From NCBI RefSeq assembly GCF_019059575.1, contig NW_024882993.1, positions 62,001 through 126,000 of the forward strand: DNA of 64,000 bases, in the 5' to 3' direction. Position numbers and translations under genes: made by a program. The notes beneath the pieces are model-generated. The model saw nothing but the letters and a program-made list of their open reading frames with translations, was not told the origin of the DNA and did not search any database. Shown here piece by piece: positions 31,374 through 55,626 of this stretch (position 1 is its first letter; the number at the start of each line of letters is the position of its first letter). The DNA comes from Amphibalanus amphitrite. Lineage: Eukaryota > Arthropoda > Thecostraca > Balanomorpha > Balanidae.

Positions 31374-32260
31374 TTAAACCTCGCCCGTATTGGCGTTTTG
31401 TCAGCCGCGAACGTATAGGGTGGGGGGGGGGGGGGCGTTGCCCCCATTGCCGTTTGGCCGCTGATCGAGCTAGAGCTTCGCGAAAAAAAAACGAGCGTGC
31501 TGCCCGTGACGAGAGGAAGACGATGATGCCCAATTTAAGGTCCTAGGTCATTGGTTCATGGTTGACCTTCCAGGTCAGGTCAATGACCCAAAAGTCGGGA
31601 AAATTGGGACCTGTTAGAGCGTCGTAAGTGTGGCTGAGCTTTTCCGGGGTGCTGATCACGAATATCGTGTTAGTGTTGATCCCAGAAGATGTCTTCATGC
31701 ATTTAGGCCAGGTCGGGTCAGGTCAACCAGTAGTGGTCCTGCTGGGTATCCGTAGTACGTGTCAACTGCCTCTGACAGCTTCGTAACATGTTACGAAGGC
31801 ACTTAGAGTACTTCGTAAATGTTCAAATGGTTGCTGAATTCGAGATCAGCTCCAAAAACTAGCCTAGAAACATGTAAAACTCGAAAAAGTGAACTGAGGT
31901 CATCAAAGGTCAATGACCTGACCTGACCTTCAGGTGACCTTCACACCCATCCAAATGCATGGGACAAACATCATATCACATGTTTGAACGCTTGAAACCA
32001 CGAAAAGACTGCAAACGCGCGGCTAATGCGAGCCAACATACGCCGAATCGCGATCCCGGCCAAACATGGTCTCGAGAAATAGGTCACAGGTCAAAGGTCA
32101 CTTGGGTAAGGGTAATTAAAATTTCAGGGTAGATGCAAAATTGATTAACTCGAGATTACTGAAAGTTTCGTCGCCATTAGCCGTTTTTACGCGAGTTATT
32201 CGCGAAAAATCGAGGGGGGTGGGGTCTGTTCGATCCCTCCCCCTATACGGGTAGGGTTAA
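31374..32260 (+). mobile_element. TTAA element family B, copy B2
   Basis: TTAAACCTCGCCCGTATTGG at 31374 and CCTATACGGGTAGGGTTAA ending at 32260. The tag CCCGTAT is at the left edge, again as ACGTATAGGG before the G-run at about 31410, and as CCCGTATAGG on the reverse strand at the right edge. The interior matches B1, B3 and B4. Confidence 0.92.
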
Positions 32261-32371
32261 CAGAGGAAGACACAATTTCCCCTTACCTGTACTTGTTTTT
32301 GAAGTGTTTCAAGCGTCATTTTGAGAAGGTACTTTATTCAGTTAGGGGGTGCATGTGCACCCCCAGAACCC

Positions 32372-33415
32372 TTAACCCTCGCCGGACCTATTGGTTTTCT
32401 ACATACGCGCCGGCCGAGGGGGAGGGCGGGTACGACCCCCCCCCCTCGCCGTTTCGCCCCTGGTGGAGCTAGCGCGTCGCGGAAAAAAACGAGCGTGTGC
32501 GCCGTTACGAGACGCAGAGATTGGTACCCGATTTTAAGGTCCCAGGTCAACCGGTGACCTCTGAGGTCAGGTCAAGTGCCCCAAGGTACGGTTCAGTTTT
32601 TGGTGAATAAGTTCGCAACAAACGGTCGCAGAGCCGCGATTTTGGCAGCATCGTGTTCACCTCGCTCAGGCACGTCGAATAATACACTTTTTGTCCGGGT
32701 CAGGTCAACTTGGGGTGTTGACCTCAGGTCAAGGTCAGATCAGCACCCCCAGGTCACGAAGCTGGTCGAAAGAGGTTATGTCGCATATCATTCGATTCGG
32801 CAGGTCTTTCTGAGTCCATTGGTGGCTTTCCCGACTCGCTAGCTCAATTTGATCGGGAGTTATTGACGAAAAACTAATATGACCTTTATGACGTCATAAA
32901 TGACGTCACGCAAGGTCAACATTGCAAAAGTGACGCATCTAACCTTGCAAGGAGTGCATCAAATTACGATTCTGTGTGCTTGAGATAGTTGGAGATCGTT
33001 CCCGGCGCCAGAATAGCAGTTTTCATTTTTCCCCATTGACTTATAATGGTGAGGTCACGAAAATGACCTGACCTCATATGACCTTTAGGAAAAATCCGAG
33101 ATATACAAGTTGTGAGACTCATAATGGATACTAGATCCTGCAAGTTTCATTTCCCTGTGACATCTCCTCTGGCAGTGAGGGCGTTGCGAAGTTGCGACAT
33201 CTGAAGACCGTGCAGAGGTTCACTTATGACGTCATAGGTCAGTGACCTGACCTGACCCAAAAATGCGGTTGGTGTCAAAAGATGTGGCTTGAATCAAAGG
33301 TCAGGTATGCCAAGTTTCAGCTCTCTATCGCCAGCGTGTTCGGAGCTATCGCGAAAAAAAACCCTATGGGGGGCGGCACCCGCCCCCCCCCCCCCCCTCG
33401 GCCGGCGAAGGTTAA
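32372..33415 (+). mobile_element. TTAA element family A, copy A3
   Basis: TTAACCCTCGCCGGACCTAT at 32372 and CCTCGGCCGGCGAAGGTTAA ending at 33415, 1,044 bp. Nearly identical to A4 (42776-43813). Contains CGCATATCATTCGATTCGG, GACGTCATAAATGACGTCAC, CCGAGATATACAAG and GACGTCATAGGTCAGTGACC. No coding frame is shared intact by both copies. Confidence 0.93.
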
Positions 33416-33974
33416 TTAATGCTCCACCATATGTCACTAACTAAACCCACTATTTGAAGTTATACTTAATGACACATGGGTAGTTTTCACTCAACATAGT
33501 AGGATAATTAAGCATTAAATGCAAAATTAGAGCTTGAGATTGTCCGGCATTTAGCCCAACAGGATACCTCTTCAATCGTCCTAGCTGAACCCAGCATAAG
33601 CTCAGCTTGTCTGAACTCGGACACACCATCAACATTGCCGAGTCTGAATTTGAGCTCGACGCCGGGCCATGGGCCTGAACTTTGTGGTCATGGGCGCGGG
33701 AGCTGGGGGTCTGGGGGGCAGCCTGCCCCCACAACTCTGGGGCCGTGGGGCGCTGCCCCACAACTTTTCATAGGGCTAGGAACCGTCGGGGCAGCTTGCC
33801 CTCCCTGAATTAGCGGTTGTGGGTCACAAAGGAAAACTAAAGGGAAGAAAACATTTAAGAAAAAATCCCCCTCTTTACCTTACTTGACAGCTCATGTGGA
33901 AGATTTAAGCCTTTATTCTACGTTACCAAAAAGGTAGTTCCTTGACTCAGCTGAGACAAAATATCTCACTTTTT
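33416..33974. other. no gene recognised
   Basis: Unassigned. GGGGCAGC(C/T)TGCCCCC motifs around 33715-33800 are low-complexity. The 33450-33761 minus-strand frame has no recognisable content. Confidence 0.5.
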
Positions 33975-34290
33975 GCAACTGTTTTCGTTTCGTTTTTTTT
34001 TTTCGATGAAAAGGCGAAGGGTTAAAAATAAGTGGCCTAAAACCGGTGAGAAAACTAGATTTGGGGGTACCCTAGGTTTGGCTAGTCCCAACCGGTTGCC
34101 CCCCCCCCCCCCAAGACGGCCGGCTGGATCCGCCCTTGTTTTTTCCTTTAGTTTTCAAAAAAAAAATCATGGTGTCAGGGCTGTGATAAAAAATAAGTGG
34201 TTTAAATCCGGTGAGAAAACAGGATTTGGGGGTACCTACCCTAGGTTTGGCTCCTTCAGGCTCTGCTCCCCCCCCCCCCCCAGTGAAAGT
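33975..34290. mobile_element. two tandem right ends of a GGATCCGCC-type element
   Basis: GTGAGAAAACTAGATTTGGG..CCCTAGGTTTGGCT at 33990-34138 recurs as GTGAGAAAACAGGATTTGGG..CCCTAGGTTTGGCT at 34139-34290. The first copy closes with GGATCCGCCC (34125-34134). Text in inverted orientation occurs at 38690-38860 (AGCCAAACCTAAGG, AATCCTGTTTTCTCATCGG). Confidence 0.65.
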
Positions 34291-34649
34291 TCCTTAGACA
34301 AGGCCCTGGCGTGCGGCCGTTTTTTGCGGCTTGCGGCGGGCGGGCGTGCAATGCAATTTTTTGCGTCGGTGTTTGCGTTTTTTGCGGTGTTTGTGTTTGG
34401 CGGCGGGCGGGCGTATGCGGTGGTGTCGTTTGTATAGGCCAGGGGCGACGAATTCAATTTTGGCGTGGGGGGGGGGGGGGGCAAGATTAGTGATGTCAAT
34501 CACGGAAAATCGGAATACCGATACCAGTGGCGTAGACAGGGGGGGCATGGGGGCCATGGCCCCCCCTTTCCGCCCAGCCGCCCAGATGGCGCCCCACTTA
34601 GCGCCGACTAGGCTGATGCCGTTTTACAGAGGGAGCATGAATTAAAAAG

Positions 34650-35204
34650 CGATGTGCAGGCAGGGATCGAACTCAATATCTCTTTAGGGGTGCCTGGACA
34701 CCCCAATGTTCTCCAGGGCACCCCCAAATAGGACCTGAGCCCCCCAATGTTTAAGGGCGCACCTCCGGAAACCAGAATAGGTATTCCGAACCCCCAGGGT
34801 CGATGGCGCCCCTGAAAGCCGCTGGCACCCACCAGAACGGAACAGTCGCCCCATTTAAGGTTAATTGCACCCCTCTGAAGTTCAAAGCTGCCCCATTCGG
34901 CCCCATCCAAGGTCGATGGCGCCCCCTGAAACCACTGGCGCCCCTCTAAAGCACCCACATTCTTCTCAAGATCACAGTCGCTCTATCCGAGATCAATAGC
35001 GCCCTCAAGAGAGTCACTAGCGCCCCCCCCCCTTGAGACTGAAGTCGTCCCGCTTGAGACTAAAGTCGCCCCATTCAAGCCCAATGACGCCCCTCCAGAG
35101 CGCCCGGTGCGCTTCTGAAGATCACAGTCGTCCTCATCCGAGGTCGCTGGCGCCCCTCAAAAGTCACCGGCGCCCATCTAAACGGAGATCACAGCTGCCC
35201 CATC
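34650..35204. repeat. GGCGCCCCTCTGAAA minisatellite, left part
   Basis: Degenerate units of 30-40 bp such as ATGGCGCCCCTGAAACC(A/G)CTGGCGCCC. The array continues after D2 at 36155-36720 and changes to GATGCCGCCCCTCAATGC units to about 37020. D2 inserted at a TTAA within it. Confidence 0.85.
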
Positions 35205-36154
35205 TTAACCCTAGAACGCCTAGGGGGGGTTGTATCAACCCCCCCCCTGAGGTTTTTTCGAAGTGCACGCTAAACGGCTTGTCGTAGCGGGCTGAAATTT
35301 TCAATACCCTCTGGGGCAACCTTTGCGCATCTTTTGCCGAAAAAAAAAAATTGATCGGGTCATGTCAGGTCACGGAGTTATGACGTCATAAGAGGTACAG
35401 CCTCCGGCCGGATTTTCACAAACTGAGTGCCAACGCCCTAGGTTTCCTGCCGGTGGTACGGACATCGGTTGATGGATCGTGATGAAACTTCCCATGCATG
35501 TTGGGGCAAGTATTGGCTATCATATGGTATAAGAAATTTGACCGGGTCAGGTCAGGTCACGGAGCTATGACGTCACAAGAGGAACAGCGTCCGGTACTAT
35601 TTTTGAAAAGCGCCCGAACCACTATTTTGCTAATTCTTGTCACCTCAATGGGAATATGCAGCAATATTAGCTTCTATAGGGAGCAAATGGACCTCCCAAA
35701 TCCAAAAATACAATCAGATTTCAAAAATTTAAATTTTGATTTTTCGAATTTCTGCCGCCGACTGTGACCTTGCCGACTTCCGGCGCTCCCAACGCGCCAT
35801 TTTTAGAGCTAGGGAAACAAAATACATACCAAACGATAGAGAATTGATCAAAGAACACGATAGTGAAGGTTTCAAGTCGATATCTCCCACCGTTTTGCCG
35901 CAATCGCCGCCGAAAGTTGAAAAAAGTCTATTTTTCCGAAAATTTGACCTTTGACCGGTCAAAAGTAGGTCAAATGTTGACCTAGGACCAAAAAATATAC
36001 CACCAATCGCGAGATCTCGTTGAGAGCAATCTGTTAGTTTTTTCCGCTAAGCTCTACGACCTTCCGTTTCGAAACGCCAGGGGGGGGGGGTCGTAACAAC
36101 CCCCCCCCCTGGTCGTTCGTGTTATGAGAAATGGCCTGGTCGTGCGAGGGTTAA
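35205..36154. mobile_element. TTAA element family D, copy D2
   Basis: TTAACCCTAGAACGCCTAGG at 35205 and GGTCGTGCGAGGGTTAA ending at 36154, 950 bp. Almost identical in the interior to D1 but with a different terminal tag (ACGACCAG twice at the right end, ACGCCTAG at the left). Confidence 0.93.
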
Positions 36155-37050
36155 GATCGATGGCAACCCTTTGAAACCAATGGCGCCCTTCTAGAGTTTA
36201 TTCGCCCCATCCGAGACAACGCCCCTTGAGACTACAGTCCCCCCACCCAATTTCAAGGCGCCCCTCTTAGACTGTCCGGCGTCCTGCTGAAGGCAACAGC
36301 GGCCCCATCCATGCCCAATGGCGCCCCTCAACGCCCCTCTAAAGATCACAGTCGCCCCATCAATCCAAGGTCGCTGGCGCCCCTCAACAGCCACTGGCGC
36401 CCACCTGAACCGGGACTTCAGTTGCCCCATCCTAAATCAATGGCGCCCCTCTGAAACCACTGGTGCCCCTCTGAAAATAACAGTCGAATCATCCGAGATC
36501 AATGGCGCCCCTTCAGAGCGTCCGACGCCCTACTGAAGGCAGCAGTGACCCCATCTAAGCATTACACCCCTCTAGATCACCCGGTGCCCTTCTGAAGATC
36601 ACATTCGCCCTATCCGAGTTCGTTGGCGCCCTCCAGTAGTCACTGACGCCCATCTGAATGGAGACTTCAGAGTCGCCCCGCCCCATTCAAGATCGATAGC
36701 GCCCCCCCCCCCGCCGAAACCACTGACGCTAGGTAGGTAATTATTTTACAATGGGGCTGTCTCATCGACACCAAGGACCCTTTTCAAGATGCAGCAGCCA
36801 GGCGGCGCCGAGCTGGGCTAGGATGTGCCAAGCGTTTCTTATAAGGCAGCCTCGATAGTGCCACCCCTCGTTGCGATACCGCCCCTCAATGCGACGCCGC
36901 CCATTCACCGTACAATGCCACCCCTCAATGCAAGTGCTGCCCCCAGCGCATTGCCCCCCCCCCCCATTATTGTGATGCCGCCCCCGCCTAGCAGTGCGGT
37001 GCCGCCCCAGCGTACGCCACACCGACGGAACGATCACTTTTAAAACTATC
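36155..37050. repeat. GGCGCCCCTCTGAAA minisatellite, right part
   Basis: Continuation of 34650-35204, first with GGCGCCCCT..CACTGGCGCC units, later with GCCGCCCCTCAATGCGA units. Low-complexity frames in it are not genes. Confidence 0.8.
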
Positions 37051-37079
37051 AGAGATTGATAAGACTAAAAATATGTATA

Positions 37080-37625
37080 AAATGTTTATCTCGGACTTTT
37101 GATATCCATGACCTAAGGTCAGGCCAATTTTGCGACTTCTCCATTAGGTATAAGTCAATTGGAGAAAATTGAAATGCGGCTCTTTTGGACGAATGTGGTT
37201 CAAAACCCTCTCAAACATCGGTACATAGGTAAACATAACACACTGAATCGATAAAATGCACCTGTGACCCTTCTGTGTGCCCCTGAGGTCATCTCAGGTC
37301 ATGAACGGTCACCAGCATTTCTTTGGCTATACCTTTTGATAGAGACTTGCTAAAGCGGTGAAAACACGTCAGATGTGTTCAGCTCGACGATACGGATCGA
37401 GTGATATGCAGCATGACCCTGTCCATCAAGGTCATGATCTTGACCTGAGGTCAAATTTTCAAAATGACGTTTCAAGGTCAACGTATAGTTCATTCGACGC
37501 GTTTCGACGAGAGGAATACGATGCTGGCAAAATAAATGTCGTCACTGTCTTGAGTCAAAAGCTATTGCAGAAAACGATTTTAATAAAAACTGTTATTTTT
37601 GGAGTTGTTTCCCTCTGGAGGCGTG
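37080..37625 (+). mobile_element. fragment of TTAA family F
   Basis: Shares ATGTGTTCAGCTCGACG, GATATGCAGCATGACC, GTATAGTTCATTCGACG, GACGAGAGGAA and CCCTCTGGAGGC in order with 44335-44570 of the family F copy. Termini are absent. Nested in the hAT-like element at 34525. Confidence 0.7.
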
Positions 37626-38150
37626 GCAGTCAGTCACTGGAGGCAGTCATGCATGTCCAGAAGTAGGGGCTGCACGCACTAGACATCGAATTGTAAAGGG
37701 GATGTGTGGAGAAAAAATCCAGAACGTATGTCAGCGTTCGGTCGCCTCTGACTGCAGTCGCTGCTGGTATGACAATGAGTTGGGATCTCATGGTGGATCT
37801 CATGGTCTTAATTGTTCAAGTCTTTCCTTGATTCCAATTTAGGCAATAAGTCGCAGCGTGTATCCTACATACGTGCGCTCTGATATTCTAAACACGGCAA
37901 CCCCGGTCGACCACAGGCTGCAGCCCACAGGTCATTCGAATTCGCATGGATGCGTATTTTGAGAATAAAATGTCCGTAGCCTGAGCTCGTTTCCTATATC
38001 ATGCTAAAAATTCATCTAGATCAAGGTTTTTTGATAAAAAAAAAACACCAGGCTGCAAATTGCATTAATTGGACTTTATGAAAATCAGCGAAAGCTGGTT
38101 CTTATGTATTTTGCAACACCTATAGTAAATCATGCATGAACATGACGTTA
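37626..38150. other. no gene recognised
   Basis: Interior of the hAT-like element between the F fragment and its right terminal region. Unassigned, without coding content. Confidence 0.5.
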
Positions 38151-38683
38151 CATTTTAGCCTGACACCCCTGTCACTAGCTGACAATGGCGCCCCTCTCAA
38201 GGGAAAAAGTCGCCCCCTCGAGCACCATTGCCCCCCCTTTCGCTGATCTCTGGCTACGCCACTGACCGATACCAAACCAAATACCAACTAAAACCACGGG
38301 AGAATACCGAAACCAAACCAACTTGAGAAACTGAGGGAAATACCAACTTTTTACCGATATCTTAGCCTCTAATACATTAGTGAGGGCCTATGATACCAAC
38401 AAAATACCAAACACATTACGATTGAAGTACCAAATACCAAGTTGGTATCGGTTTGGTATCGGTATACCAAAAAGTTGGTATCCGATTGACATCTCTAGGC
38501 AAGATACTATACGAGATAATGCCATAGGCGGATTCAAAAATGTTTTTTCCACGCTACGGGAACATACCCCCAAAAAGTATCTCCAAAATCCAAAAACTCG
38601 GATTTTGATGCATTACATACCTACCTACCTACTCCTGAGCAGCTTCAGCATGGGTGGAGAATTGTCGAAATGCCAGGGGATGG

Positions 38684-38870
38684 TTTCACTGGCGGATCCA
38701 GGGCTTGAGAGCGGGCGTCGGGCACACCAGGGAAGGAGCCAAACCTAAGGTACCCACAAATCCTGTTTTCTCATCGGATTTAGGCCACTTTTTCGTCACA
38801 GCCCTGGCACGATGATTTTTTTTTTAAGACTTGAAAAAAATTGTAGGCCACCTGACAGGGGCTTTTTCTT
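38684..38870. mobile_element. left end of a GGCGGATCC-type element
   Basis: CACTGGCGGATCCAGGGC begins at about 38686. Following text is the inverse of 33990-34290 (AAACCTAAGGTACCC, TCATCGGATTTAGGCC, CACAGCCCTGGCA). No closing end was found to the right. Confidence 0.6.
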
Positions 38871-38994
38871 TCGGCACCTGAAGCCTCTCTGGGCTGTGAG
38901 CCTCTCTGGGCCCTATGTAGGGCCATTGGAAGTCAGGTTAAGGGTTGACCCACAGAGGTGCACGTGACCCACAGGGGAGCACTGCCGCTTCAAC

Positions 38995-40907: not shown

Positions 40908-42691
40908 ATGGGTAAGTTATCTGTGAAGAACTCGGTGATTGTCGATGAAGCTTTTATCAATCGTATGCGCCACGGAGAACAGGGAGGTGAACTGATGGAC
41001 CAGCAGACATTCCCCGCCGACGTCAGGAGGTCGGTGCCAACCGTGAACGGCGGAGCAGATCGATCGAGAAACTGAGGGATACCTACCCGGCATAGTTCGA
41101 GAAAGAAGAGGTGAGTTATGTTATATTTAAATTAAAAAAACATGTTCGTGGGATAATGTTGTCCTTATCCTAAAAGCACGTTCGTTTGACCCTTTTTACT
41201 TCTTTAAACAACAGCTCCGTCACGACCCGATGGTTTTTTTTTTGGGGGGGGGGGCGAAGGTTGTTTGAAGTCGATTCTTTCCATGCAGCACCCATAGGCA
41301 CAATGTTAAAAATGTAAAATATTGGGGGACACGTCCCCCGTACCCTCCCCCCCCCCCCCCCCGGTGGTGGGGCCCATGGTCTTAATTCCGCTCGCTGAAC
41401 CGTTTAAGATTCTTCTGTCTCGTTTGTGCTTGTTATTTTTCCGACTGTTATTATTTTTACGACTGTTTGTTTTTAATGCCTACACACATAATTTCGTACA
41501 CTATTCGATTTCAGCGAGCATTTTCAACCTTTCTTACAGTTCTGGCGCGAGTTCGACCGGGTGGTGGGTTGCTCAGCCGGCTCGAAGCCGGCACTGACCA
41601 CTACGAGGCCTCGATGCAGCGGCTTAAATCATGGCTAAGCCGAGTTCAAGCGGCATGCTTCCGCACAAAAGGTTTGTGTTTCATTATCTGTTCATTTTTA
41701 TACAATAGAATAAGGAAAAGCAACGTAACTAACAATTAACCCTCGCATGTGTGCGGCGTTTGCCAGCTTCTAATGTGTAGGGGGGGGGGGGTCGGTTGGA
41801 CCCCCCCCTTGCCGTTTGGCCCCTGATTGAGCTAGAGCTTCGCGGAAAAAAACGAGCGTGTTGCCCGTGACGAGAGGAAGCCGATGATACCCAATTTTAA
41901 GGTCCTAGGTCATTGATTGACCTTCCAGGTCAGGTCAATGACCCAAAGTCGGGAAAATCGGGACCTATTAGAAAGTCGTAAAGTGTGGCTGCTAAGGGGT
42001 TTTTCGGGGTGCTGATCACGAATATCGTGTTAGTTTTGATCACAGATGATGTCTTTAAGCATTTAGACCAGGTCGGGTCAGGTCAGGTCAGGTCAACCAG
42101 TAGGGGTTGTGACGGGTATTCGTAGTACGTGTCAACCGCCTCTGACAGCTTCGTAACATGTTACGAAGGCATCAAAACTACTTCGTAAATGTTCAAATGG
42201 TTGCTAAATTCGAATTCAGCTCCAAAAAGTAGCCTAGAAACATGTAAAACTCGAAAAAGTGAGCCGAGGTCACCCGAGGTCACCAAAGGTCAATGACCTG
42301 ACCTGACCTTCAGGTGACCTTGACACCCACCCTAATGCATGGGAGCAGCATCAAATCACATGTTTGAACGTTTGAAACCACGAAAAGCTTGCAAACGCGC
42401 GGCTAATGCGAGCCGACATACGCGTAATCGCGATTCCGGCCAAACATGGTCTCGGAAAAGAGGTCACAGGTCAAAGGTCATTTGGGTCAGGGTCATAAAA
42501 TTTTCAGGGTAGGTGTAAAATTGATCAATGCGAGGGTACTGAAAGTTTCGTCGCGATCGGCCGCTTTTTACGCGAGTTATTCGCGAAAAACCAAGGGGGG
42601 GGGGGGTCCATCCGACCCCCCCTACACATGCGAGGGTTAATTAAGTATGTTAACTTGCTTCAATATTATACATGCATCAATATAAACATTA

Positions 42692-42762
<71 letters not shown>

Positions 42763-45277
42763 ATTACTGTTAAGTTTAACCCTCGCCGGACCTATTGGTT
42801 TTCTACATACGCGCCGGCCGAGGGGGGGGGGCGGGTACGACCCCCCCTCGCCGTTTCGCCCCTGGTGGAGCTAGCGCGTCGCGGAAAAAACGAGCGTGTG
42901 CGCCGTTACGAGACGCAGAGATTGGTACCCGATTTTAAGGTCCTAGGTCAACCGGTGACCTCTGAGGTCAGGTCAAGTGCTCCAGGGTACGGTTCAGTTT
43001 TTGGTGAATAACTTCGCAAAAAACGGCCGCAGAGCGCCAATTTTGGCAGCATCGTGTTCGTCTCGCTCAGGCGCGTCGAATGATATACTTTTTGTCCGGG
43101 TCAGGTCAACTTGGGGTGTTGACCTCAGGTCAAGGTCAGGTCAGCACCCCCAGGTCACGAAGTTGGTCGAAAGAGGTCATGTCGCATATCATTCGATTCG
43201 GCAGGTCTTCCTGAGTCCATTGGTGGCTTTCCCGACTCGCTAGCTCAATTTGATCAAGAGTTATTGACGAAAAACTAATATGACCTTGATGACGTCATAA
43301 ATGACGTCACGCAAGGTCAACATTGCAAAAGTGACGCATCTAACCTTGCAAGGAGTGCATCAAATCACGATTCTGTGTGCTTGAGATAGTTGGAGATCGT
43401 TCCCGGCGCCAGAATAGCAGTTTTCATTTTTCCCCATTGACTTATAATGGTGAGGTCACGAAAATGACCTGACCTCATATGACCTTTAGGAAAAATCCGA
43501 GATATACAAATTGTGGGACTCATAATGGATACTAGATCCTGCAAGTTTCATTTCCCTGTGACATCTCCTCTGGCAGTGAGGGCGTTGCGAAGTTGCGACA
43601 TCTGAAGACCGTGCAGAGGTTCACTTATGACGTCATAGGTCAGTGACCTGACCTGACCCAAAAATGCGGTTGGTGTCAAAAGATCCGGCTTGGATCAAAG
43701 GTCAGGTATGCCAAGTTTCAGCTCTCTATCGCCAGCGTGTTCGGAGCTATCGCGAAAAACCCTATGGGGGGGGGCGGCACCCGCCCCCCCCCCCCTCGGC
43801 CGGCGAGGGTTAACACATTTTATGTGATTGTTTCAAGTTGATTTTAATATTGGACGCCCATGGAAGTGTTTTGCGAGACTAAAACCCGTCTGTTAAGGTG
43901 ACCATCCCACCTTGACCCGCGCTGTGCTGGGTGGCGTTTTACACCCCCCCCCCCGCCCCCTCAGGTTTTTCGCGAATATCTAAGAACGGCGGCGCGCAGC
44001 GCCACCATTTTCGGCACACCTGCTCATACCTTTTTTCTGCATATGGAAAAAATTTTAGACCCAGGTCGTTCAAGGTCAGGTCACGTCAAATGACTTTACA
44101 TGAGAAAAATTTTCAATGGTCGCTGACGATCGTGCACCGTGCCATGGAAACCGTTCGATATTTTTGTCATTTTTGCTCAGGGAATTCACCGCTCGATTTC
44201 ACACCAGTTTGAGGTAAAATGTTAAAAAATTATCGAACGGATTTCATTTAATAGCGTTTTTGATACTGTCCCATGTCTCAAGTATCAACCTTACGGCATG
44301 TATAAAATATATTTGCTAGTGCAATAAAACACCTCATATGTGTTCAGCTTGACGGTTTGGATCGACTGATATGCAACATGACCTGGTCAGGTCAACCTGA
44401 GATCAAGTTTTAAAAATGGCCTTTCAAGGTCTAATTATAGTTCATTCGTCCCGACGAGAGGAACATTATGCTAACGCCGCAAAATAAATATCGTGACTCT
44501 TGAGTGGAAAGTATTACAGAAAACATTTTCGTAAAAACGGCTTTTTTTAGAGTTTTTGCTCTCTGGAGGCTTAATTGTTGAACTGAGGTCAAATCTGAGA
44601 TCAAGCGCCAGCAAAAAAAAACGTCGAAAGGGCTTTTGACTGCATTTTTCCGCGGGCAGCTCTTTTGGTTCCGAGTTAAGCACCAGTTTTTCGAAAATAT
44701 TGAAATAAGCAAAATTTGGCCTATCCTGACCTCTGGTGACCTGGCACTTGACTTGACCTTAAAAATTACCCAAGTATTTCCTTAAATATCTTTTATGCTT
44801 TTTCGAATGCCGCTTACTGCGTGTCGCTACGTGGCCCAACAGCCGAGTTAGAAGAGGGGACGTGAAGACGACCCCCCCCCCCCCCCAGTACATTACGGTA
44901 AACTCTGAGCACCAGCACGGCGCGGTTTAACATTAATTTTGAGCTGAAGTAACTTGATAACTTTTGATATTTCAATCAACTTGCATGCCCATATAACTTC
45001 CGTATCTCTTACTGGCAAAAGAAAATCTGACTTTTTTATTGTGTTTTCAGGGAACGGCCCATTGAGCCTCCTCTGCATCTTGGCGGAGAAGGCGTCAGTG
45101 GTGGCGTACACGGGTGACGAAAATTTGGATCACCCCCATCATAACAAGTCCGAAGGAAACGAACGGTGCCGCCTCAGCGTAGTTCGAACGGAAGTCTTGT
45201 GGGGATCCATGGTTTGGAAGGGAGTCTTGCTGTGGGCGACGGCGCACTTTGTGCTCAATCAACAAACGGCGCATTAA
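40908..45277 (+). CDS. candidate split gene inside the TA element
   Basis: Model: exon 1 from ATG 40908 (donor GG/GTAAGT after 40911, or GAG/GTGAAC after 40986; both leave phase 1); exon 2 at 41540-41671 after TTTCTTACAG, donor G/GTTTGT; exon 3 at 45051-45277 after TTTTATTGTGTTTTCAG, ending in TAA. Phases agree at both junctions, giving 75-145 residues. Exon 2 encodes DHYEASMQRLKSWLSRVQAA; exon 3 encodes NGPLSLLCILAEKASVVAYT. I recognise no domain. A 128-codon frame on the other strand (45095-45481) overlaps exon 3 and is an alternative. Unspliced exon 1 reads 55 codons. This is inference from splice signals and phase only. Confidence 0.35.
41241..41370. mobile_element. partial G-run MITE
   Basis: CGATTCTTTCCATGCAGCACC and CCCATAGG..AATGTTAAAAATG, then GGGGGACAC and a C-run, follow the copy at 11201-11355 but both termini are eroded. 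The first string is given shortened: GATTCTTTCCATGCA. Confidence 0.65.
41736..42640 (+). mobile_element. TTAA element family B, copy B3
   Basis: TTAACCCTCGCATGTGTGCG at 41736 and CCTACACATGCGAGGGTTAA ending at 42640. The tag ATGTGT occurs at the left edge, again before the left G-run (TAATGTGTAGGGG, about 41772) and, inverted, at the right edge. 905 bp, intact, no coding. It lies in the long intron of the candidate split gene. Confidence 0.94.
42692..42760. repeat. (AT)n microsatellite
   Basis: An uninterrupted run of about 30 AT dinucleotides preceded by AATATATT. It sits between TTAA elements B3 and A4. Confidence 0.98.
42776..43813 (+). mobile_element. TTAA element family A, copy A4
   Basis: TTAACCCTCGCCGGACCTAT at 42776 and CCTCGGCCGGCGAGGGTTAA ending at 43813. 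Closest relative of A3, differing by few substitutions and homopolymer length. Contains tandem CRE-like palindromes (ATGACGTCATAAATGACGTC) and many GGTCA units. Confidence 0.94.
43912..44930 (+). mobile_element. TTAA element family F, complete copy
   Basis: TTGACCCGCGCTGTGCTGGG at 43912 (TTAA with one change) and ACGGCGCGGTTTAA ending at 44930. The right long end carries GTGCTGG, a spacer and TGTACTGGGG. GGTTTTTCGCGAATATC and GGCGGCGCGCAGCGCC lie just inside the left hairpin, as in families B, C and D. Fragments occur at 23632 and 37080. Confidence 0.82.
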
Positions 45278-45569
45278 CGAAACACGCTGTGGTTTGTGTG
45301 TATCCATGTGCTCCAAACACCATTCAATGCTGAGCGCCAGCCACCTGTAGCCGCGAAGACTGAGGTCGAGAAGCTGGCAAAAGAGTGAAGCTGAGCTGAC
45401 GTGGAGTCGATCCCTCCCCCGACGCAGTTTGGCGTGTGTCATAATTGAAATACAGCGCAATGCGACCGTTTCTACAAACATATATTTCTTGGTAAGGGCT
45501 GGGGCGAATAGTGCAAGACTAGACGTTGGTCGGGCATGCTATAATACAGATATGTATGCTGGTTTTGGG

Positions 45570-45742: not shown

Positions 45743-45769
45743 CAGCCGTTTCAGGCGGCGCCTGAGTAA

Positions 45770-46195: not shown

Positions 46196-46403
46196 TAAAA
46201 TTTTTTTTCAGTGTATTTCTCAGACACCAGCTAGGGCTCTCGGGGACCGCTTTTGAGCCTCAAAAAAAGCATGTGCGGGCCCTTGGGGCGCATCCGGTGT
46301 CCTCAGGAGTTGGGTGCCTGTGTGCGACTTCAAGAGCCTGACGGATCTCTCAGGAGCCGGAGTGGGTAATTGGAGACCCCGGCCCCGGGAGAAGACTCGG
46401 CAC

Positions 46404-47593: not shown

Positions 47594-48626
47594 CAGGGTG
47601 TCCCGAAATTGATGCGCGGTTGTTCTATCCTCAATAACTTATAAAGTGCTCGAATTTATTTCACGGCTTATATGTTATCATAGTCCCCATTCAGTTGCAT
47701 ACACGGCCTATTGCACTCTAGCGTGTCACGTTTCAGGTTGTCAAGAGTCTCTCCTTTGAAACAGCGCCATGCCGTTTATATCTTCTGAAACAGCCTCTTC
47801 TCTGAGCTAGCCCGTGGAAGCTTGCTGGGCTCTTTTCTGACGATCGTCCAGATAATTTGGATCGGGGACAGGTCCAGACTGTTGCCAGACCATGTCCCCT
47901 TCTCCCAGAGGCCTGGGAGCCTCGCTCGGCACCAGTCCTGGGTCTTCCTGGCGTGATAAGCTGGAGCCCTTTCTTGCTGGAAAATGGCCCTGGGCATGTC
48001 GGACAAAAGTGTGAGTCTGGTTTTTGAACCATTTACCTTTTCCCTCAGCATCTTTGTGGCATCAGTCTTCTCCAGCACCTCGTTGACATAATAATAAGCA
48101 GTCACGGTCTGTCCCCGAGGCACCTCGTAAAGCTCAGAGGCCAGAGCGCCTCTGTAGCTCATCATGCTCCAAATGAGATTCTTCAGCAGACGTTTCACGG
48201 TCTCGACAGCGGACTCCTCAGAGCTGCCGTTGGCCCACATTTCGATCGTTCTGGCAGTAAGGGGCTTAGAGACCACAAAGGGCACCTTGTCACTGAAAAG
48301 GACGCATCTCCAGTCCTGAATGGTCCAGTTTTTGTGGGTCTTGGCGAAATCCAGCTGCCTGCACTTCTAGACCACGGTAGGCCAAGTCTGCATCCTGAAG
48401 CTGAGCAGCTTCAGCTTCAAGATAGTCTTCAAATACTGGTGGAGGGTCGATTTGGATGCTGGGACATGCATCTCATTCAGTTTTCTTGTCAGCGATGTTG
48501 AATGGTGCTTTTTAAAGGTCGACTTTGCAATCACGATTTTCGCCACTCTGCTCAAGGCAGTCTTCCGCCCTCGAACTGTGCTGTTCTTGAGTGTCTCTCC
48601 TGATCGTTCCTGACCTGAGTGATCTC

Positions 48627-48985
48627 TCCCGATGTCCCCTCCGTGGCCGAGTGGATTAAAGCGCCGGAATTCGACGCTTAACCGGTAGTGAGAGCCCGGT
48701 TCAAGCCCCGGTGCGGGCGGCCACATTTAGCTCCTACCTGTAATGGCGTGCGTGTCTGTGGCAGGGGCCGCACAGTAGCCAGGTAACGTGAGTGAGCGGA
48801 GAGGGCCGTGTCCAGTCGTGAGGGCACGTTAAACGTTCGGACAAAATTCTGCCATACAGCTGGAATTGCGCGATCGGGTGGTGGGGTCAGGGTCAGCACA
48901 ACAAGCTATGCTTAGTGCGGGCTCTGATTCCTCAAATCCACCCATTCAACCATTCGGACTAAAGTTATTAAAAAATAAAAAAATC
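48627..48985 (+). mobile_element. tRNA-derived SINE inside the mariner
   Basis: Mariner transposase reading is lost at about 48985 and regained at about 48620. The insert opens with a tRNA-like head, has a body of about 240 bp (GGCAGGGGCCGCACAGTAG, CACGTTAAACGTTCGGAC) and ends in an A-rich tail (TTATTAAAAAATAAAAAAAT), as expected for a plus-strand SINE. No clear target duplication. Confidence 0.7.
48636..48721 (+). repeat. class II tRNA-like SINE head
   Basis: Box A TGGCCGAGTGG (48644-48654) and box B GGTTCAAGCCC (48698-48708) are well preserved. The long variable-arm text ACCGGTAGTGAGAG is shared with 22728-22741. The T stem has one mismatch and no good acceptor pairing is found, so it is not annotated as a functional Leu/Ser-type tRNA. 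Confidence 0.65.
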
Positions 48986-49332
48986 GTTTGCAGTCCATCC
49001 AAAGTTTAATTGTCGCAGAGTTGACGTCCAATTCTCTGGCATCCGGAACCTGGGTCACACCGTCCTTGATCATCCCCACCGCGCGGTAGCGGATCGGTAG
49101 TTTGTGCCTTTTCACTTTTGGTAATATGCGGTTTCTCCACGTTGCCTGTCTGGACAAGAGTGGCCTCCCGCGCCCACCACCGGCCGCGGTCGGGTTAGCC
49201 GCTTGGTTCACGTGATCGTGTGACCAGCAAGATGTCCGTGGTGCCATAGCCGGTAAAATTGCAGTTGTTCAGCACTCGGGAGGGACAACATAACATGCGG
49301 CACCAACCGCGCATCAATTTCGGGACACCCTG

Positions 49333-49798
49333 TATATGAAAACAGTGGTGACGTCATACTGTCGAACATGTATTGCAATGTAACTTATAACTATCATGTA
49401 CGGAACTGCTTACTCGATTATAAGCTCGGCAACAGTGAAAAACTAAGTGTCACCCAAATTCGTTGACACTTGTCCCAATGTCCCATTGCACGGACATTTG
49501 GGTGCCTGCTGCCACCAGTGACGTCATCATAATGTGTTCATTTTTAAGAAGTTTCACCCAAATTCGTTGACACTTGTCCCAATGCACGGACATTTGGGTG
49601 CCTGCTGCCACCAGTGACGTCATCATAATATGTTCATTTTTCAGAAATAATTTCCAGCTACTTACCGTGCACAATTTGAAATCGGTTATTTTTTTCGGTA
49701 AGAAACTCTTCAGTCTTCGCCAGACACTGAAGCTGCCAAAACTCACGTGAGAGCTTCGATATTGAACTTTGGGCCAGCGTCCTTTAAAAAAAAAAGAA
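49333..49798. repeat. tandem duplication of ~104 bp
   Basis: CACCCAAATTCGTTGACACT, GTCCCAATG, CACGGACATTTGGGTGCCTG and AGTGACGTCATCATAAT occur twice, at 49452-49550 and 49556-49650. The copies differ by a 10-bp CCAATGTCCC repeat. A minus-strand frame crosses both copies but has no recognised content. Confidence 0.85.
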
Positions 49799-50508
49799 CT
49801 ATAGTGAGTTTTCCAGTTCTTTTACATTGGCTTCTAACTCTTTTTCGCGTTTTCGCCTTTCTCGCGCCTTCCGCTTACTCGCCTTAATACATATTACTCT
49901 TGCATTTGACAGCAGCATTTCTATCAACAGGCCTAGTTCGCTAGCCCCATGGTATTGGCTCTGCCTTTGTTTTGCCCTAGGTATGTATTTCCTCTTTAAT
50001 TTCATTAACCACATCAGCGCACTCGAGTAAGCTGAGGTTCAATCTCCATACACCTGGTCCCCGCTTGTCCCCAAATACGTTTACTGAGAACGTTATGATA
50101 CTGCGATCGCTTCTTGGGCCGGGTTCAATGTCAATTTTTTCCACATGATGAGCATCTATAAACACGCTGCTTACAAGGAAGTAATATATTCTGGATTGTT
50201 GCAATGGATGACACTTCCTCCACGTATATCGACACAAATTTGGGTTCGCTTCGCGCCAGACATCTTTCAGATCAAATTCTCGCATTAGTTCACTCACAGC
50301 CTGAGCGGTGGTAGATGCCTGAGTGAATTTTTTTTACTGGAATCAGGCATTGATAAATTTGTATGATTAAATCTCCGCAAACAATAAGCGGGTGCGTTAT
50401 CTGTAGGGATCGTATGTGCTTGCCTAGTTCTTTATAAAAAGTTTACTTGGCAATGTCCTTACGTCGGCGCGTATACTCCGACAACTGCCATTGTTGCGTT
50501 ATTAATGT
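49799..50508 (-). pseudogene. L1/Tx1-type LINE endonuclease C-terminal half
   Basis: Minus-strand text: AVVGVYAPT near 50480, PLIVCGDL near 50390, then FDLKDVWREANPN, YTWRKCHPLQQSRIYYFLVS, GPRSDRSIITF, RGPGVWRLNLSLLE. These are endonuclease motifs: the GDFN-type turn, the S-R-I-D-Y position (D is Y here) and the SDHS position (H is R here). A frameshift near 49990 leads to a basic coiled-coil stretch (ASKRKARERRKREKELE). Mutated catalytic positions and shifts make it a pseudogene. Confidence 0.85.
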
Positions 50509-51695
50509 TTAACCCGCGCCCCGTTGGGCTCTGCCGAGCAACGCGCCCCGTTGGGGGGGGGGGCATTTTGCCCCCCCCCCTAAGATCTCGAGAACCACGC
50601 AACCTAGCGACAAGCGGCAAACAGTGTTGGATAGCCCTATCAGGGAACTACCTTGTGACCCAATTTTATTGACCTAGGTCAAACCGATGACGTCACAGGT
50701 CAGGTCAAAGGTCCAATTTTCACCGTTTACAGGCATTTCAAGAAATGCGTTGTAAAATCGAGTAAAATGCATTTCATTGAAAATCATTGATGGGGAAATG
50801 TTCTTCAAACACATATTTTGCTATTTGAGGTCACTGATACCAGGTCAGGTCACAGAGGTCAGGTCACGGGGGGTCACAATATGAAAGTGTCGTGTGATAC
50901 ATGTTTTATGGTCCATTTTACATGACGAATGCGATTATGTGGGTCAGGCAGCCTTTGGGGCCAGCTTAGGTCACGTTTTGGTCAAGGTCAGGTCAAGGTC
51001 AGGTCAAGGTCAGGTCAAATTAGGTCAAATTTCAAAGTTAATATTTTTGCATAAAATGGGTATCGAATTTGAATTTGCAGCTCGTCACGGGGAGTTCAAT
51101 GGTGGTCTATGTTTTGCCGTACGTGGTCTAGAATCGCTAAAAAATTAAGTTCAAAAATTTGACGTCATCATTTTTGAACAGTTTTTTTCGCTATAACTTG
51201 GCCAAAAAACGAGATATCGATCTAAAATTTGGTATGTATATAGAAGAGCACAGGGACTATCACATATTTTCCGGTTTTTTCGAAATTCGGAAAAAAATTT
51301 TGGATTTTTTAGTTTTTCTGAAAAAAAATCAATTTCTTGATTTTTTTATGGTCAAAAACCCAAAATTTTGAAAATCCGAGATAGCAGTTTTGTAGCCGTT
51401 TTTTGTCTACTAGACCATATAAAGAACTTTGAAATTGCTTGATAACTGTAGGTTTGGTGAGCGTTTCAAGATTGCATGTTTTTTGCTCATTTTTGCTCGA
51501 ACATGACCTCAGTTTGACCTCAGTAACTCCTGACCTAAGGTGACCTAAGGCTTGAAATTTGGTGTGAAGGTGTCAAATTGATGCCCGAGAAGGAACTGAA
51601 AATTTGGCGGCGCTGCGCGCCGCCGTTTTCTTGCTATTTAGGAAAAACCACAGGGGGGGCCAAAATGCCCCCCCCCCCAACGGGGCGAGGGTTAA
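50509..51695 (+). mobile_element. TTAA element family C, copy C2, inside the LINE
   Basis: TTAACCCGCGCCCCGTTGGG at 50509 and CCAACGGGGCGAGGGTTAA ending at 51695. The tag CCCCGTTGGG appears twice at the left end and once inverted at the right. Removing it and one TTAA rejoins LINE codons as ..SVQL-NINN..AVVGVYAPT, an uninterrupted endonuclease reading, so it inserted precisely at TTAA. Confidence 0.95.
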
Positions 51696-51867
51696 CTGAA
51701 CCGAAACTGTTCTGCGCTCCTGGGCCTCGTTTCATAAAGCTCTGCCGTAACTTACACCTTTCCGTAATTCACACCCTTTCAAACTACGGAGCGCAAATGA
51801 AGCCGTTTCACAAAGCCACAACTGGAATTGTTTACACCTCCGTAACTAAGCACATTTGCGTAGTTAC

Positions 51868-52082
51868 CGTAATTGTATTGACATTGTATTGACAATTGCT
51901 GACAACTCCACATCACTCATTGTGGCTATTCTGTGTCACAAGTCAAAAGATAAAACGATCAACGGGAAATATGGTTGAGGGGTAAAAACAGGCACACAGT
52001 CAAACAACACTCATACGTCAGAAAATGCTAACCCCGTCCACCCTCCCCACCCCTATTGCACACCACCGACTTGACTGCTCGC
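51868..52082 (-). pseudogene. 3' end of the L2-type LINE
   Basis: On the minus strand the reverse transcriptase frame resumes at the TTAA left by element G: FKRAVKSVVCNRGGEGGRG then stop near 52030. About 160 bp of 3' untranslated text follows, ending in GTCAATACAATGTCAATACA, a tandem decamer tail like those of L2/CR1-type LINEs. Confidence 0.75.
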
Positions 52083-53259
52083 TTAACACGCGCCCCGCTG
52101 GGGGGGGGGGCAGAATCTGCCCCCCCTCCCGTTTTTCGCCAATAACTTCTAAACGCGTTACGCCAGCGACGTCAAACTTTCAGTACCTTATCATACATCA
52201 ATTTGACACGTTCCCTGAAAATTTGAGCAAAATCCGTCGGAAAATTTTTGAGAAATTGACGTTTTAGTGACGTCATGTTCGCCATTTTCGCCTCAAAAAC
52301 GGCAAAATTTCAAACGCCGCTAACATCTTCATTTTTAAAGGAATCAAGACGTAACAAAAAAGGTTATACGTGATTCTACTTTGTCTATCAAATGGCTATC
52401 TCGGTTTTTTGAAAATTTTGGATTTTGGCCAAAATTTTTCCAAAAAACTGACTTTTTTGGGAAAATATTTATAAAATCCAAAATTTTGAGTTTATCGAAA
52501 AAACCGGAATATATGTCAAAGACGTGGTCTATGTGCACCTACATACCAATTTTTAGAAGAATCGGTTCAAAAATGTGGGAGTTATTCAAAATTTTATGAC
52601 GTCACGACACACAAAAATTTTGAAAAATGATTTTTTTGGAAGTTCTAGACCTCGTACGGAAACACAAATAGCACCATTCGATTCGCCGTGAAAAACTGCA
52701 TCGAATAGACACCTTTTTAGGCCTTAACAACCAACTTCAAAATTTGACCTCACTTGACCTGACCTTGACCTGACCTCGACCTGAAATTCATCCAGAGGTG
52801 GTCCATATCACTTATTGAGTGTGCCTATTGAATTCCATGAGTAAAATGACCCATAAAACATGTGTCGCACATGCCCTTTTCTATATTTTGTTTTTGGTGA
52901 CCTGACCTGACCTTGACCTTGACCTTTGAATGACATTGTGTGCAATGAATATTGTCTTGGTAGTCTAAGAACACGTTTTGGGCAATCAGTCTCAGTCCAT
53001 TCTTCGGCAACTACGGTGCAAGGCCGATACTGTAGAAACTTGTATTTTGTACCCTTGACCTGACCTTGACCTGACCTCTGACCTACTTAAGCAAAAAAAA
53101 TTGGGCTCTTAAGATCCGCCTTGTTGAGAGCTTTCGATTGCCGTTTTCCCCGTCTTTCTACGACCATCGGTTCGGAAGTTAGACAGGGGGGGGCAGAATC
53201 TGCCCCCCCCCCCCCAGCAGGGCGCGTATGGCTGAATAGCCCAGCGGGGCGCGGGTTAA
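52083..53259. mobile_element. TTAA element family G, inside the L2 LINE
   Basis: TTAACACGCGCCCCGCTGGG at 52083 and CCAGCGGGGCGCGGGTTAA ending at 53259. The tag CCC(C/T)GCTGGG is present once at the left end and twice at the right end around a CTATTCAGCCATA spacer. Both hairpins have the loop AGAATCT. The interior carries TGACCTTGACCTGACCT arrays. It inserted in the C-terminal codons of the LINE reverse transcriptase. Confidence 0.93.
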
Positions 53260-54558
53260 AGCGTGCCGGGTTCAGCTCCAATGTGCTCGCAGGCAGTTCG
53301 TTCAGGAGTGATGCGGCACGGTAGGTAAAAGACCGCTGGCCGGCGGCTGTACGCATGAGTGGAGGCCGCAGCCGCCGGTCCTGCCGGGTACCACGATCAC
53401 AGCGCTGACGTGAGTCCACAAATGTCACAAACTGGGATGAGATGTCCGTGGGCTCCCCGCACACAATCGCCTTCTGAGCCACAGTCATGGTGGACACGTC
53501 ACACATCAGTCGAGGGGAGATAAAACCAAGCTCCTCCCGCGCGCGAGACACATGGTCATGGTCATACTTCCGCAGGCCAGTGACGACTCTGGTGGCGAAG
53601 TTAACCACGCTCATCAGTCTAGCGTCATTCTTGGAAGTGCCACAGCCATAAATCGCAATACAGTACCTCACGCGCGAGAGGACCAGGCCGTCAACCACCG
53701 TGCGCATCACATGCCGCGGGAGGAGATGCCTCAGGTGGCGGAGACCGATCAGGAGGCCAACACACTGACGGACAACAGCACTGACGTGGTCGTCCCAAGT
53801 CAGGTGACGGTCGAAAAGCACGCCAAGGTTTTTAACGGACGGGCTCTCCTGAACGGTCTCCCCACCGACCCGTACGCTGACAGGGGATAGGCCGCGGGTG
53901 TTCTGACGAGTGCCAAGGAGTAGGATTTCGGTTTTGGATGCATTTAGCTTGAGTCCATGGGCATGGAACCATGATGACAGGGCTTGGAGAGTGGTTTCCA
54001 TGCGATGGATAAGGGAAGGAAGGTTGCGTTTGGAGTCGGATATCAGGATTTGGGTATCGTCAGCGTACTGGGTCACATGAGCGTCCGGCGCGTGAAGGCT
54101 GAGGTCGTTGGAGAGGATGGTGAACAGGAGAGGACCTAAGGATGAGCCTTGGAAGACTCCCATGGTGTTAGGAAGGGGAGATGAGACCACCCTGTCACCG
54201 GAGGAGGTAGCGATGGAGACGGATTGAGTATGGCCGGAGAGATAGGCGGAAAACCAGGTAGGATCAATGTTGTACTGCTGAAGTTTGGTAAGGAGCAGAG
54301 GATGGGGTATAACGTCAAAACACTTACTGAGGTCCAAAAGGCATAGGAGTGACAGCTGACTGCGGTCCATGTTGTGAAGGATGCGGTTAGTGACAGTGAG
54401 AAGGGCGGTCTCGGTGGAATGATTGGGACGGAAGCCGTGTTGGGAAGTGGAGAGGAGGTGATTGTCGGACATGTAGGCAAACAGCTGCCGCTGCACCACA
54501 CGCTCGACCAGGGGGCTGTCATCCCGAGCTTTCCTATGTGCCGGGCGCCCGACTCTTT
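53260..54558 (-). CDS. L2/CR1-type LINE reverse transcriptase, 5'-truncated
   Basis: About 430 codons open from a stop near 54560. Reverse transcriptase motifs in order: SQHGFRPNHSTETALL, LLDLSKCFDVIPHPLLL (first Asp), GVFQGSSLGPLLFTI, catalytic QYADDTQI, LKLNASKTEILLLG, VKNLGVLFDRHLTWDDH. The thumb and tail hold VDGLVLSRVRYCIAIYGC and QRSFTYRAASLLNELP, typical of L2/CR1-type proteins. It copies LINE RNA at the target nick. The annotated frame reads on into element G to 53087; the native tail is at 51868-52082. The 5' half (endonuclease) is missing. Confidence 0.9.
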
Positions 54559-54751
54559 AACATTAGCCGTGACGTCACGGGAGCGTACACTTCTCAGCTG
54601 GCCTTCGCCGCAAGTTTGGCCTTGCATATGATTTTGAGGGTCACGGTTGTAAACAAGTTCCTTTCCGGAAACGTTCCGGAAACGCTAGAAACGTTGTCAT
54701 GCTTTTATTTTCCGGAAAATGCTTCATTACTAATTCGCGCCTAAAATCACT
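54559..54751. other. no gene recognised
   Basis: Short unassigned spacer between the LINE and TTAA element B4. It contains a small TTTCCGGAAACGTTCCGGAAA-like palindrome near 54662. Confidence 0.5.
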
Positions 54752-55626
54752 TTAACCCTCGCCGGCACAGGGGGAACCCCCTAAGGTTTTTCGCGAATGA
54801 CTCGCGTAAAATGCGGCCGATCACGACGAAACTTTCAGGATCCTCGCATTGATCAATTTGACACCTACCCTGAAAATTTCATGACCCTGACCCAAATGAC
54901 CTTTGACCTGTGACCTCTTTTCCGAGACCATGTTTGGCCGGAATCACGATTCGGCGTATGTTGGCTCGCATTAGCCGCGCGTTTGCAAGCTTTTCGTGGT
55001 TTCAATCGTCCAAACATGTGATTTGATGTTGCTCCCATGCATTAGGGTGGGTGTCAAGGTCACCTGAAGGTCAGGTCAGGTCATTGACCTTTGGTGACCT
55101 CGGTTCACTTTTTCGAGTTTTACATGTTTCTAGGCTAGTTTTTGGAGCTGAATTCGAATTTAGCAATCATTTGAACATTAACGAAGTAGTTTCGGTGCCT
55201 TCGTAACATGCTACGAAGCTGTCAGAGACGGATGACAGGTACTACGAATACCCGTCACGACCCCTACCGGTTGACCTCTGATCTGACCCGACCTGGTCTG
55301 AACGCTTAACGGCATCATCTGTGATCAAAACTAACACGATATTCGTGATCAGCACCCCGGAAAACCCTTAGCAGCCACACTTTACGACTTTCTAACAGGT
55401 CCCGGTATTCCCGATTTTTGGGTCATTGACCTGACCTGGAAGGTCAACCGATGACCTAGGACCTTAAACTTAAATATCATTGGCTTCCTCTCGTGACGGG
55501 CAACACGCTCGTTTTTTCCGCGAAGCTCTAGCTCCATCAGGGGCCAAATGCGAGGGGGAGGGGTCGTACCAACCCCCCCCCCTTGTGCCGTCGAATGACA
55601 AAATGGCCTGTGCCGGCGAGGGTTAA
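54752..55626 (-). mobile_element. TTAA element family B, copy B4, reverse
   Basis: TTAACCCTCGCCGGCACAGG at 54752 and CCTGTGCCGGCGAGGGTTAA ending at 55626. The inner second tag TTGTGCCG lies at about 55583 beside the C-run. Interior is the reverse complement of B1-B3. 875 bp. Confidence 0.94.

Follow-up and report, generated by a model that had tools for sequence, protein, structure and literature searches.

Barnacle piggyBac-type MITEs carry family-specific end boxes and have probably exchanged end modules between families

We analysed a window of 64,000 nucleotides from the barnacle Amphibalanus amphitrite (the whole stretch under study; C1496:62001-126000 in our contig numbering of a surveyed assembly of 807.6 Mb in 2,644 contigs). 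Eight elements bounded by TTAA and 0.87-1.19 kb long lie between positions 31374 and 55626, with a ninth, D1, at 21190-22137; near the ends of each element a short sequence, here called the tag, is written up to three times. We conclude that these are very probably miniature inverted-repeat transposable elements (MITEs) of the piggyBac superfamily, that the tag serves as the transposase's first recognition box, and that families with a shared interior arose from rare exchanges, the matching transposase amplifying the recombinants. Four observations carry this reading: the position and spacing of the box, the matching of box and loop between the two ends, the occurrence of four tag sets at transposase loci, and the fixation of tags by family.

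End architecture of the window elements

Each window element opens with TTAACCC(T/G)CGC or a close variant, and TTAA is seen at both ends, the variants being the short end of G (TTAACA) and the long end of B2 (TTAAAC). The short end has the order tag, G-run, and the long end the order tag, spacer, tag, G-run; behind every G-run comes a short loop and then a C-run. In B3 (41736..42640, forward strand, long end left) the tag ATGTGT starts at bp 8 and 34 of the long end and bp 8 of the short end, numbered from the first base after TTAA. Its presumed long-end recognition module (41747..41779, forward strand; role after PMC7351741) consists of outer tag, spacer and inner tag directly before the G-run/C-run inverted repeat.

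An earlier note on this DNA had described a tag that stands once by the short-end G-run and twice at the long end, and this was borne out in six of the eight elements. Besides B3 these are B4 (54752..55626, reverse strand, long end right; CGGCACA three times), B2 (31374..32260, forward strand, long end left; CGTAT three times, the copy lying inside a larger repeat), C2 (50509..51695, forward strand; CCCCGTTGG three times), G (52083..53259, reverse strand, long end right; CCCCGCTGG as outer and short tag, CCCTGCTGG as inner tag, the short end beginning TTAACAC) and D2 (35205..36154, reverse strand, long end right), which has a differing short end. The other two elements belong to family A, namely A3 (32372..33415, forward strand; CCGGCCGAG as inner and short tag, CCGGACCTA as outer tag) and A4 (42776..43813, forward strand), which was included in the end comparison; in both, a full match was found between the inner and short tags only. 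D1 (reverse strand, long end right) has CCGTAAAC as its outer, CCATGCA as its inner and CCATGTA as its short tag.

The earlier note knew of no described element with this grammar, but the piggyBac of T. ni, whose ends are printed in PMC3078864, has the same layout. There AAAGATA starts at bp 7 of the short end and at bp 7 and 34 of the long end, with palindromes at 17 and 45, respectively; in B3 the inverted repeats are at 15 and 41. Of 97 long ends from contig C1 (described below), 83 have a tag-to-tag step of 26-27 bp (27 bp for 69 ends, 26 bp for 14), six have other steps, and in eight no tags match at 5/8 or better; T. ni piggyBac has a step of 27 bp. According to PMC7351741, the piggyBac end RE63 differs from LE35 in a 17-bp insertion and a second copy of the box, the DDBD domain of the T. 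ni transposase contacts bp 7-16 of the terminal inverted repeat (TIR), and activity is approximately halved if the second box is randomised or 5 bp are inserted. Selection for TIR matching, which the earlier note had offered among its possible causes, fits, the tag being placed at the site of each end that is read by the piggyBac transposase.

The barnacle elements share with T. ni piggyBac the TTAA, the CCCT tip, a bp 7-16 box present once on one end and twice on the other with a 27-bp step, a candidate palindrome behind each inner box and a homologous transposase with a DDD triad and a cysteine-rich domain (CRD); the G-run/loop/C-run inverted repeat is located where piggyBac has the palindrome bound by the CRD. 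They differ in that their boxes vary by family and are mostly GC-rich, the arms of the inverted repeats are G-runs and C-runs of variable length, and the window copies are non-autonomous. In piggyBat, too, a unit of box and palindrome is repeated on one end and a tetramer synapses asymmetric ends, although its box is GCGGGA, its CRD has another fold and its other end is without a palindrome (PMC11707139 and the preprint PMC13405395). The end architecture is standard for piggyBac and its grammar is not new; a literature text search for TTAACCCTCGC returned no match.

Tags are fixed by family and matched between ends

With the long-end pattern TTAACCC(T/G)CGC N20-40 (not G) GGGGG, we counted ~44,790 long ends in the genome (22,050 + 22,740) and 3 + 5 = 8 with a reversed-pattern control, and there are ~46,222 short ends (23,177 + 23,045; control 3 + 1 = 4), a few ends being counted twice in these totals. 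At ~1 kb each, the elements would make up roughly 5-6% of the genome, and many ends are maybe unpaired. The 100 long ends listed for closer analysis are all on the forward strand of contig C1; three were short-end pieces and were dropped, leaving the 97 mentioned above, and of 100 listed short-end rows four duplicate another end, leaving 96 that were typed. Of the 82 long ends in reach on this contig, 43 have a partner among the listed short ends at a distance of 750-1450 bp, with one pair doubtful.

The earlier note had considered the tags copy-specific. They are not, since 97 of the 100 listed long ends fall, by hand-written spacer patterns, into 18 families within which the outer and inner tags are nearly constant. 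Mismatch to the family consensus (counted at modal length in families with four or more rows) amounts to 11/448 in the outer tag, 16/976 in the spacer and 4/448 in the inner tag; the tags vary like neighbouring DNA, and therefore there is no renewal at insertion. On the D interior, D2 tips were found 1,556 times and D1 tips 1,725 times (3,293 with a slightly different generic D pattern). Could it be that each insertion nevertheless rewrites the tags, with end repair or template switching carrying them from one end to the other? Such rewriting would account for tags that match within an element far above chance, but the recurrence of each family's tag in many copies (97 of 100 listed long ends sort into 18 families), the large numbers of D2 and D1 tips and a tag mismatch that resembles the spacer's refute it as a general rule, and we give it almost no credence. 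Of the suggestion that tags are renewed per insertion or per lineage, only the second half is retained: tags differ by lineage.

Matching between the ends was assessed by permutation, using 21 family rows: 16 spacer keys (44 pairs, contig C1) and five typed from the window and from loci, rows that are partly dependent, with B2 and B3 spread over several spacer keys. The tag match within versus between families was 0.69 versus 0.45 for outer and inner tags, 0.89 versus 0.49 for outer and short tags and 0.88 versus 0.46 for inner and short tags, and in each of the three comparisons 0 of 50,000 permutations reached the observed value. Counted by copy, and leaving out the doubtful pair of 1,388 bp that was kept both in the 43 of 82 and in the permutation test, the inner and short tags agree in their last five letters in 33 of 43 paired elements, as against 15 of 1,584 comparisons in which the spacer keys differed, and the outer and short tags agree in their first five letters in 29 of 43, as against 17 of 1,584. 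A match across ends is seen in the loop letters too, those that separate G-run from C-run (0.80 versus 0.44, 12 families, 0/50,000 permutations); the matched module thus extends beyond the tag.

The claim that the two ends of a copy match is mostly correct but not universal, the exceptions being A and D1 in the outer tag and D2 at its short end. The last of these had been called diverged, but AACGCCTA is identical in three D2 MITEs and in their autonomous parent (all those read), and it is not decay. Another kind of variation is found in the 'GTCC' family (18 long ends on C1), in which one outer position is G in ten, T in six, A in one and C in one while the inner position is T; this may be a position that the enzyme does not read at the outer site.

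Exceptions such as these bear on the idea that gene conversion within the element homogenises the three tags and that transposase recognition plays no role. Conversion would agree with the match of inner and outer boxes to the short-end box, and of the loops as well. However, the differing D2 short end persists in MITEs and in the intact parent, A and D1 retain an outer box different from the inner one, the short end shows no spacer, and the boxes lie at the positions and intervals known from piggyBac ends dissected by experiment. We consider conversion of this kind quite improbable.

Transposase loci that bear the tags

The genome has at least 116 matches to PF13843 (DDE_Tnp_1_7). Among the best 20 loci (L059-L078) 16 have TTAACCCATTA ends, two have TTAACCCTTTA ends and two have no clear end in reach. 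The abundant TTAACCCATTA piggyBacs were rejected as direct parents of the window elements, their loci carrying TTAACCCATTA ends. Near L072 and L078 there are tag-and-G-run ends that fall outside the TTAACCCATTA ends, and at L078 the two outer pieces sum to about one C-type MITE, which we read as nesting.

Three loci of one further line (on C527 and two more) have an exact D2 long end 1,011-1,019 bp past the PF13843 domain. The element at C527:290214-294184, 3,971 bp long, is bounded by the D2 short and long ends and contains an unbroken open reading frame (ORF) of 646 amino acids (PF13843, 2.2e-69), which aligns with the T. ni transposase structure PDB 6x67 (E 2e-78, residues 89-638), CRD included and with the three catalytic aspartates aligned; the solved structures related to this transposase are those of piggyBac and piggyBat elements only. 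Bases 1-390 and 660-950 of the D2 MITE match the two ends of this autonomous piggyBac at 91 and 93%, respectively, and the middle is lost. Judging from this alignment, the D2 MITE is a deletion derivative of the C527 element, which we regard as its parent. A further D2 MITE, 98% identical to the window's, lies at C527:289270-290217 and abuts the autonomous element with one shared TTAA, as if one had inserted at the end of the other.

A search with the D2 protein found relatives that include ones of 58% and 38% amino acid identity, and three loci of such relatives carry tags of their own. At C33:447032-451754 (38%) CCCTGGTG is present three times, and a B4-type end lies outside. The element from C778:130624 to ~137199 (56-58%) has CGGCACA three times, the same tags as the B4 MITE, with pieces of B interior beside the gene and another TTAA element nested in it. 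At C702 ~41274-45361 (transposase at 42-44 kb, 49-58%) the inner and short tags are those of B2 and the outer tag has decayed. Pairwise identity among the D2, B4 and B2 transposases is 49-61% for the greater part of the protein and 35% in one N-terminal piece. The tags at the four transposase loci differ, so in the four cases read different tags accompany different transposase lines, and each tag presumably has a transposase line of its own that reads it.

These loci also bear on the superfamily assignment. The TTAA target alone is not specific to piggyBac, and elements of other superfamilies, Kolobok or Sola3, might be considered; but the transposases encoded at loci that bear these tags are of the PF13843 type, and that of D2 is 6x67-like with a CRD. 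Another superfamily is false for D2, very unlikely for B4, B2 and CCCTGGTG, and in general a suggestion that we can practically set aside.

For other families the picture is less complete. In the 5' flanks of 20 further transposase loci there was no TTAACC-type end in 14, and in the 3' flanks of 17 loci a D2 end was found in three. A tag-and-G-run end in L105 was rejected as a transposase end; it belongs to a separate element of ~0.8 kb. We found no tagged end in the flanks of the C412, C1318 and C552 loci and one long-type end in that of the C53 locus. The interior of family L030 matches the C412 and C1318 flanks (L127, L129) at 85-86%, and the C2 interior matches the upstream flank of the locus at C702:36 kb (L087, C702:37.9-38.8 kb) at 86%, ends being found in neither case; these loci are possible parents of the L030 and C2 families.

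Shared interiors, different tips

That interiors are shared where tags differ, as the earlier note had observed, was confirmed. B3 and two B4 copies are identical at 748/789 interior positions, and their long tips at only 17/47 and 18/49, their short tags at 5/10 and their loops at 6/9 and 6/10; for the window's own B4 the values are 724/793 (91%) in the interior and 15/40 (38%) in the long tip. Overall, B3 and B4 interiors are 91-95% and their long tips 36-38% identical, and the interior identity within B3 or within B4 (91-98%) is similar to that between B3 and the two B4 copies. D1 and D2 are 93-94% identical in the interior and 48% in the long tip. Alignment of tips gave z values of 1.1-1.3 for B3-B4 and 0.0-0.2 for D1-D2, and of 3.8-4.9 for B3-D1 and 4.0-4.1 for B4-D2, pairs of families whose interiors have only short matches in common. 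A generic pattern finds tips on the B interior 4,545 times (the ten printed strings are three B2, four B4 and three B3); the D2 tip on the B interior, the sole cross-combination tried, had 0 exact matches. We consider, from these alignments, that whole end modules have probably been exchanged at the family level. Such exchange is rare, and from these counts and the B tree described below a few exchange events probably founded families that later grew large.

How would such elements be moved and exchanged? As in piggyBac, the short end has one box with its putative palindrome and the long end an extra outer box ~27 bp further out, an asymmetric pair that could be synapsed by an assembly of two transposase dimers; the G-run/loop/C-run repeat is, by its position, the putative palindrome bound by the CRD. 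Tags would match because elements with matching ends are those that get moved. In an exchange, an element would retain both of its ends and receive, in gap repair or ectopic conversion, an interior taken from another family, with two breakpoints within the element, perhaps near the G- and C-runs, a guess based on where identity resumes. Replacement of the interior between kept ends would mean that both ends differ together in one event, and the recombinant would then be amplified by the transposase that matches its ends.

Alternatively, there was no exchange: with interiors little changed, the tips of B3 and B4, and likewise those of D1 and D2, would have diverged where they stood, co-evolving rapidly with transposases that were themselves diverging. 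Tags do follow interior families, the transposases that go with the D2, B4 and B2 tags have diverged to the extent given above, and rapid change would be conceivable at a reading site caught up in an arms race. Against this, interiors differ by 5-9% where tips with their spacers are 36-48% identical, and the tips are closer to those of families with unrelated interiors than to those of the sister family. In addition, the B2 and B4 transposase genes are alignable only at 70.5% over 699 bp and 79% over 48 bp, yet the pieces of B interior adjacent to them are 82-96% identical to B3. Divergence in place is thus, in our estimation, rather unlikely.

Exchange of end modules that act as recognition boxes is the interpretation we favour, and several of our observations weigh against it. 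The loop letters are only half self-complementary (0.50), because of which the assignment of the CRD site rests mainly on position. Outer and inner tags are often one base apart, and D2, D1 and A break the threefold match, so exact identity of the tags is not required. The transposase loci were read in part, and those read bear the D2, B4, B2 and CCCTGGTG tags but gave no established cognate for A, B3, C2, G or most of the remaining families. Of these loci, C702 and C778 hold damaged copies (frameshift; one stop), with part of their outer TTAAs mutated; they are therefore evidence of descent, not of function. The tip classes are also unclean, with z values of 2.5-2.9 for B2-B4, 4.7-4.8 for B2-L019 and 3.1-3.9 for D1-B4. 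Further, a tree of the B interior (13 rows; the window copy and L007 kept, the larger-repeat copies L001-L006 and L008, L041 as a near-duplicate of L043, and matches shorter than 680 bp left out) needs only three tag changes, the fewest possible, with no conflict between tag and interior and weak support inside B3/B4. Because the tags fit this tree, it is the extent of the tip difference, and not a tree conflict, that points to exchange. Lastly, D2 copies are 98% identical to each other, more than D1 is to D2 in the interior, and the D1-D2 exchange was therefore not recent. What the earlier note had named as the contrary outcome, a few fixed subfamily tags that track interiors, is largely what we found, in the fixed tags, the counts of D1 and D2 tips and the three changes in the B tree.

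Comparable cases have been reported. In corals, according to the available text of PMC2872659, CMITEs have TTAA and CCC(T) tips and interiors that are more conserved between families than their TIRs are; three families have matching TIRs, and one shares its TIRs with a piggyBac-like element. They differ in being ~100 bp long with ~1,600 copies in A. millepora, compared with ~1 kb, ~45,000 ends and several parents in the barnacle, and a duplicated inner box goes unmentioned in that text. Similarly, in Galileo two TIRs of one subfamily are found around the interior of another, for which the proposed origin is recombination or conversion, both breakpoints falling within the element, although Galileo belongs to the P superfamily, has long TIRs and was studied in 170 copies (PMC3573991).

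Other features of the window

The larger repeat in which the window's B2 copy sits (31374-33415 in the window) is matched over 1.75-3.6 kb at ~99% by seven other loci (L001-L008 series), and 13 of 40 scored hits to it, the window's own counted, extend into the start of the A3 element. These copies are not independent insertions. A TTAA element end with a GAGTTGCTGG tag is present at 31296 (reverse strand) and again at L119:219, nested inside the C778 element near its long end. Additional TTAACCC-type ends, some of them degraded, occur at 13215 (reverse), 16387 (forward), 18408 (reverse) and 44930 (reverse); the last of these, TTAAACCGCGCCGTGCTGG, is similar to the CCGTGCTGG family.

GGTCA/TGACC pentamers are frequent in MITE interiors (raw counts of 12 in the 950-bp D2 MITE and 29 in its 3,971-bp parent), and we take them to resemble nuclear-receptor half sites. 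At 60937-64000 two long ORFs have, by eye, the appearance of a non-LTR (long terminal repeat) retrotransposon, one of 522 amino acids with CCHC-like knuckles and one of 517, open at the window end and endonuclease/reverse transcriptase-like. ARAGORN found no tRNA in 48000-49400.

Implications

The worth of these elements lies in a catalogue of end codes, some of them with their transposases, and in the exchange of end modules. One genome holds at least 18 end codes that differ at a few positions of a known contact box, together with transposase loci for four tag sets that are 38-61% identical. Since the D2 transposase has relatives among solved structures only in piggyBac and piggyBat, the discrimination by these enzymes of their own ends is known from few cases. 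The question of which residues read which code is directly testable here, and the answer could give mutually orthogonal piggyBac systems.

A more far-reaching idea, which we put forward tentatively and rate at somewhat less than even, is that end codes are exchangeable: several transposase lines would coexist, each with its own thrice-written code of tag and palindrome, and non-coding interiors would pass between the lines by being placed between new end pairs, with the G- and C-runs as exchange points. If this is true, it is the interior that would persist as the parasite, and the end module would be a key that it can change. The barnacle elements are in any event a well-sampled case of MITEs that have apparently switched transposase through end-module exchange.

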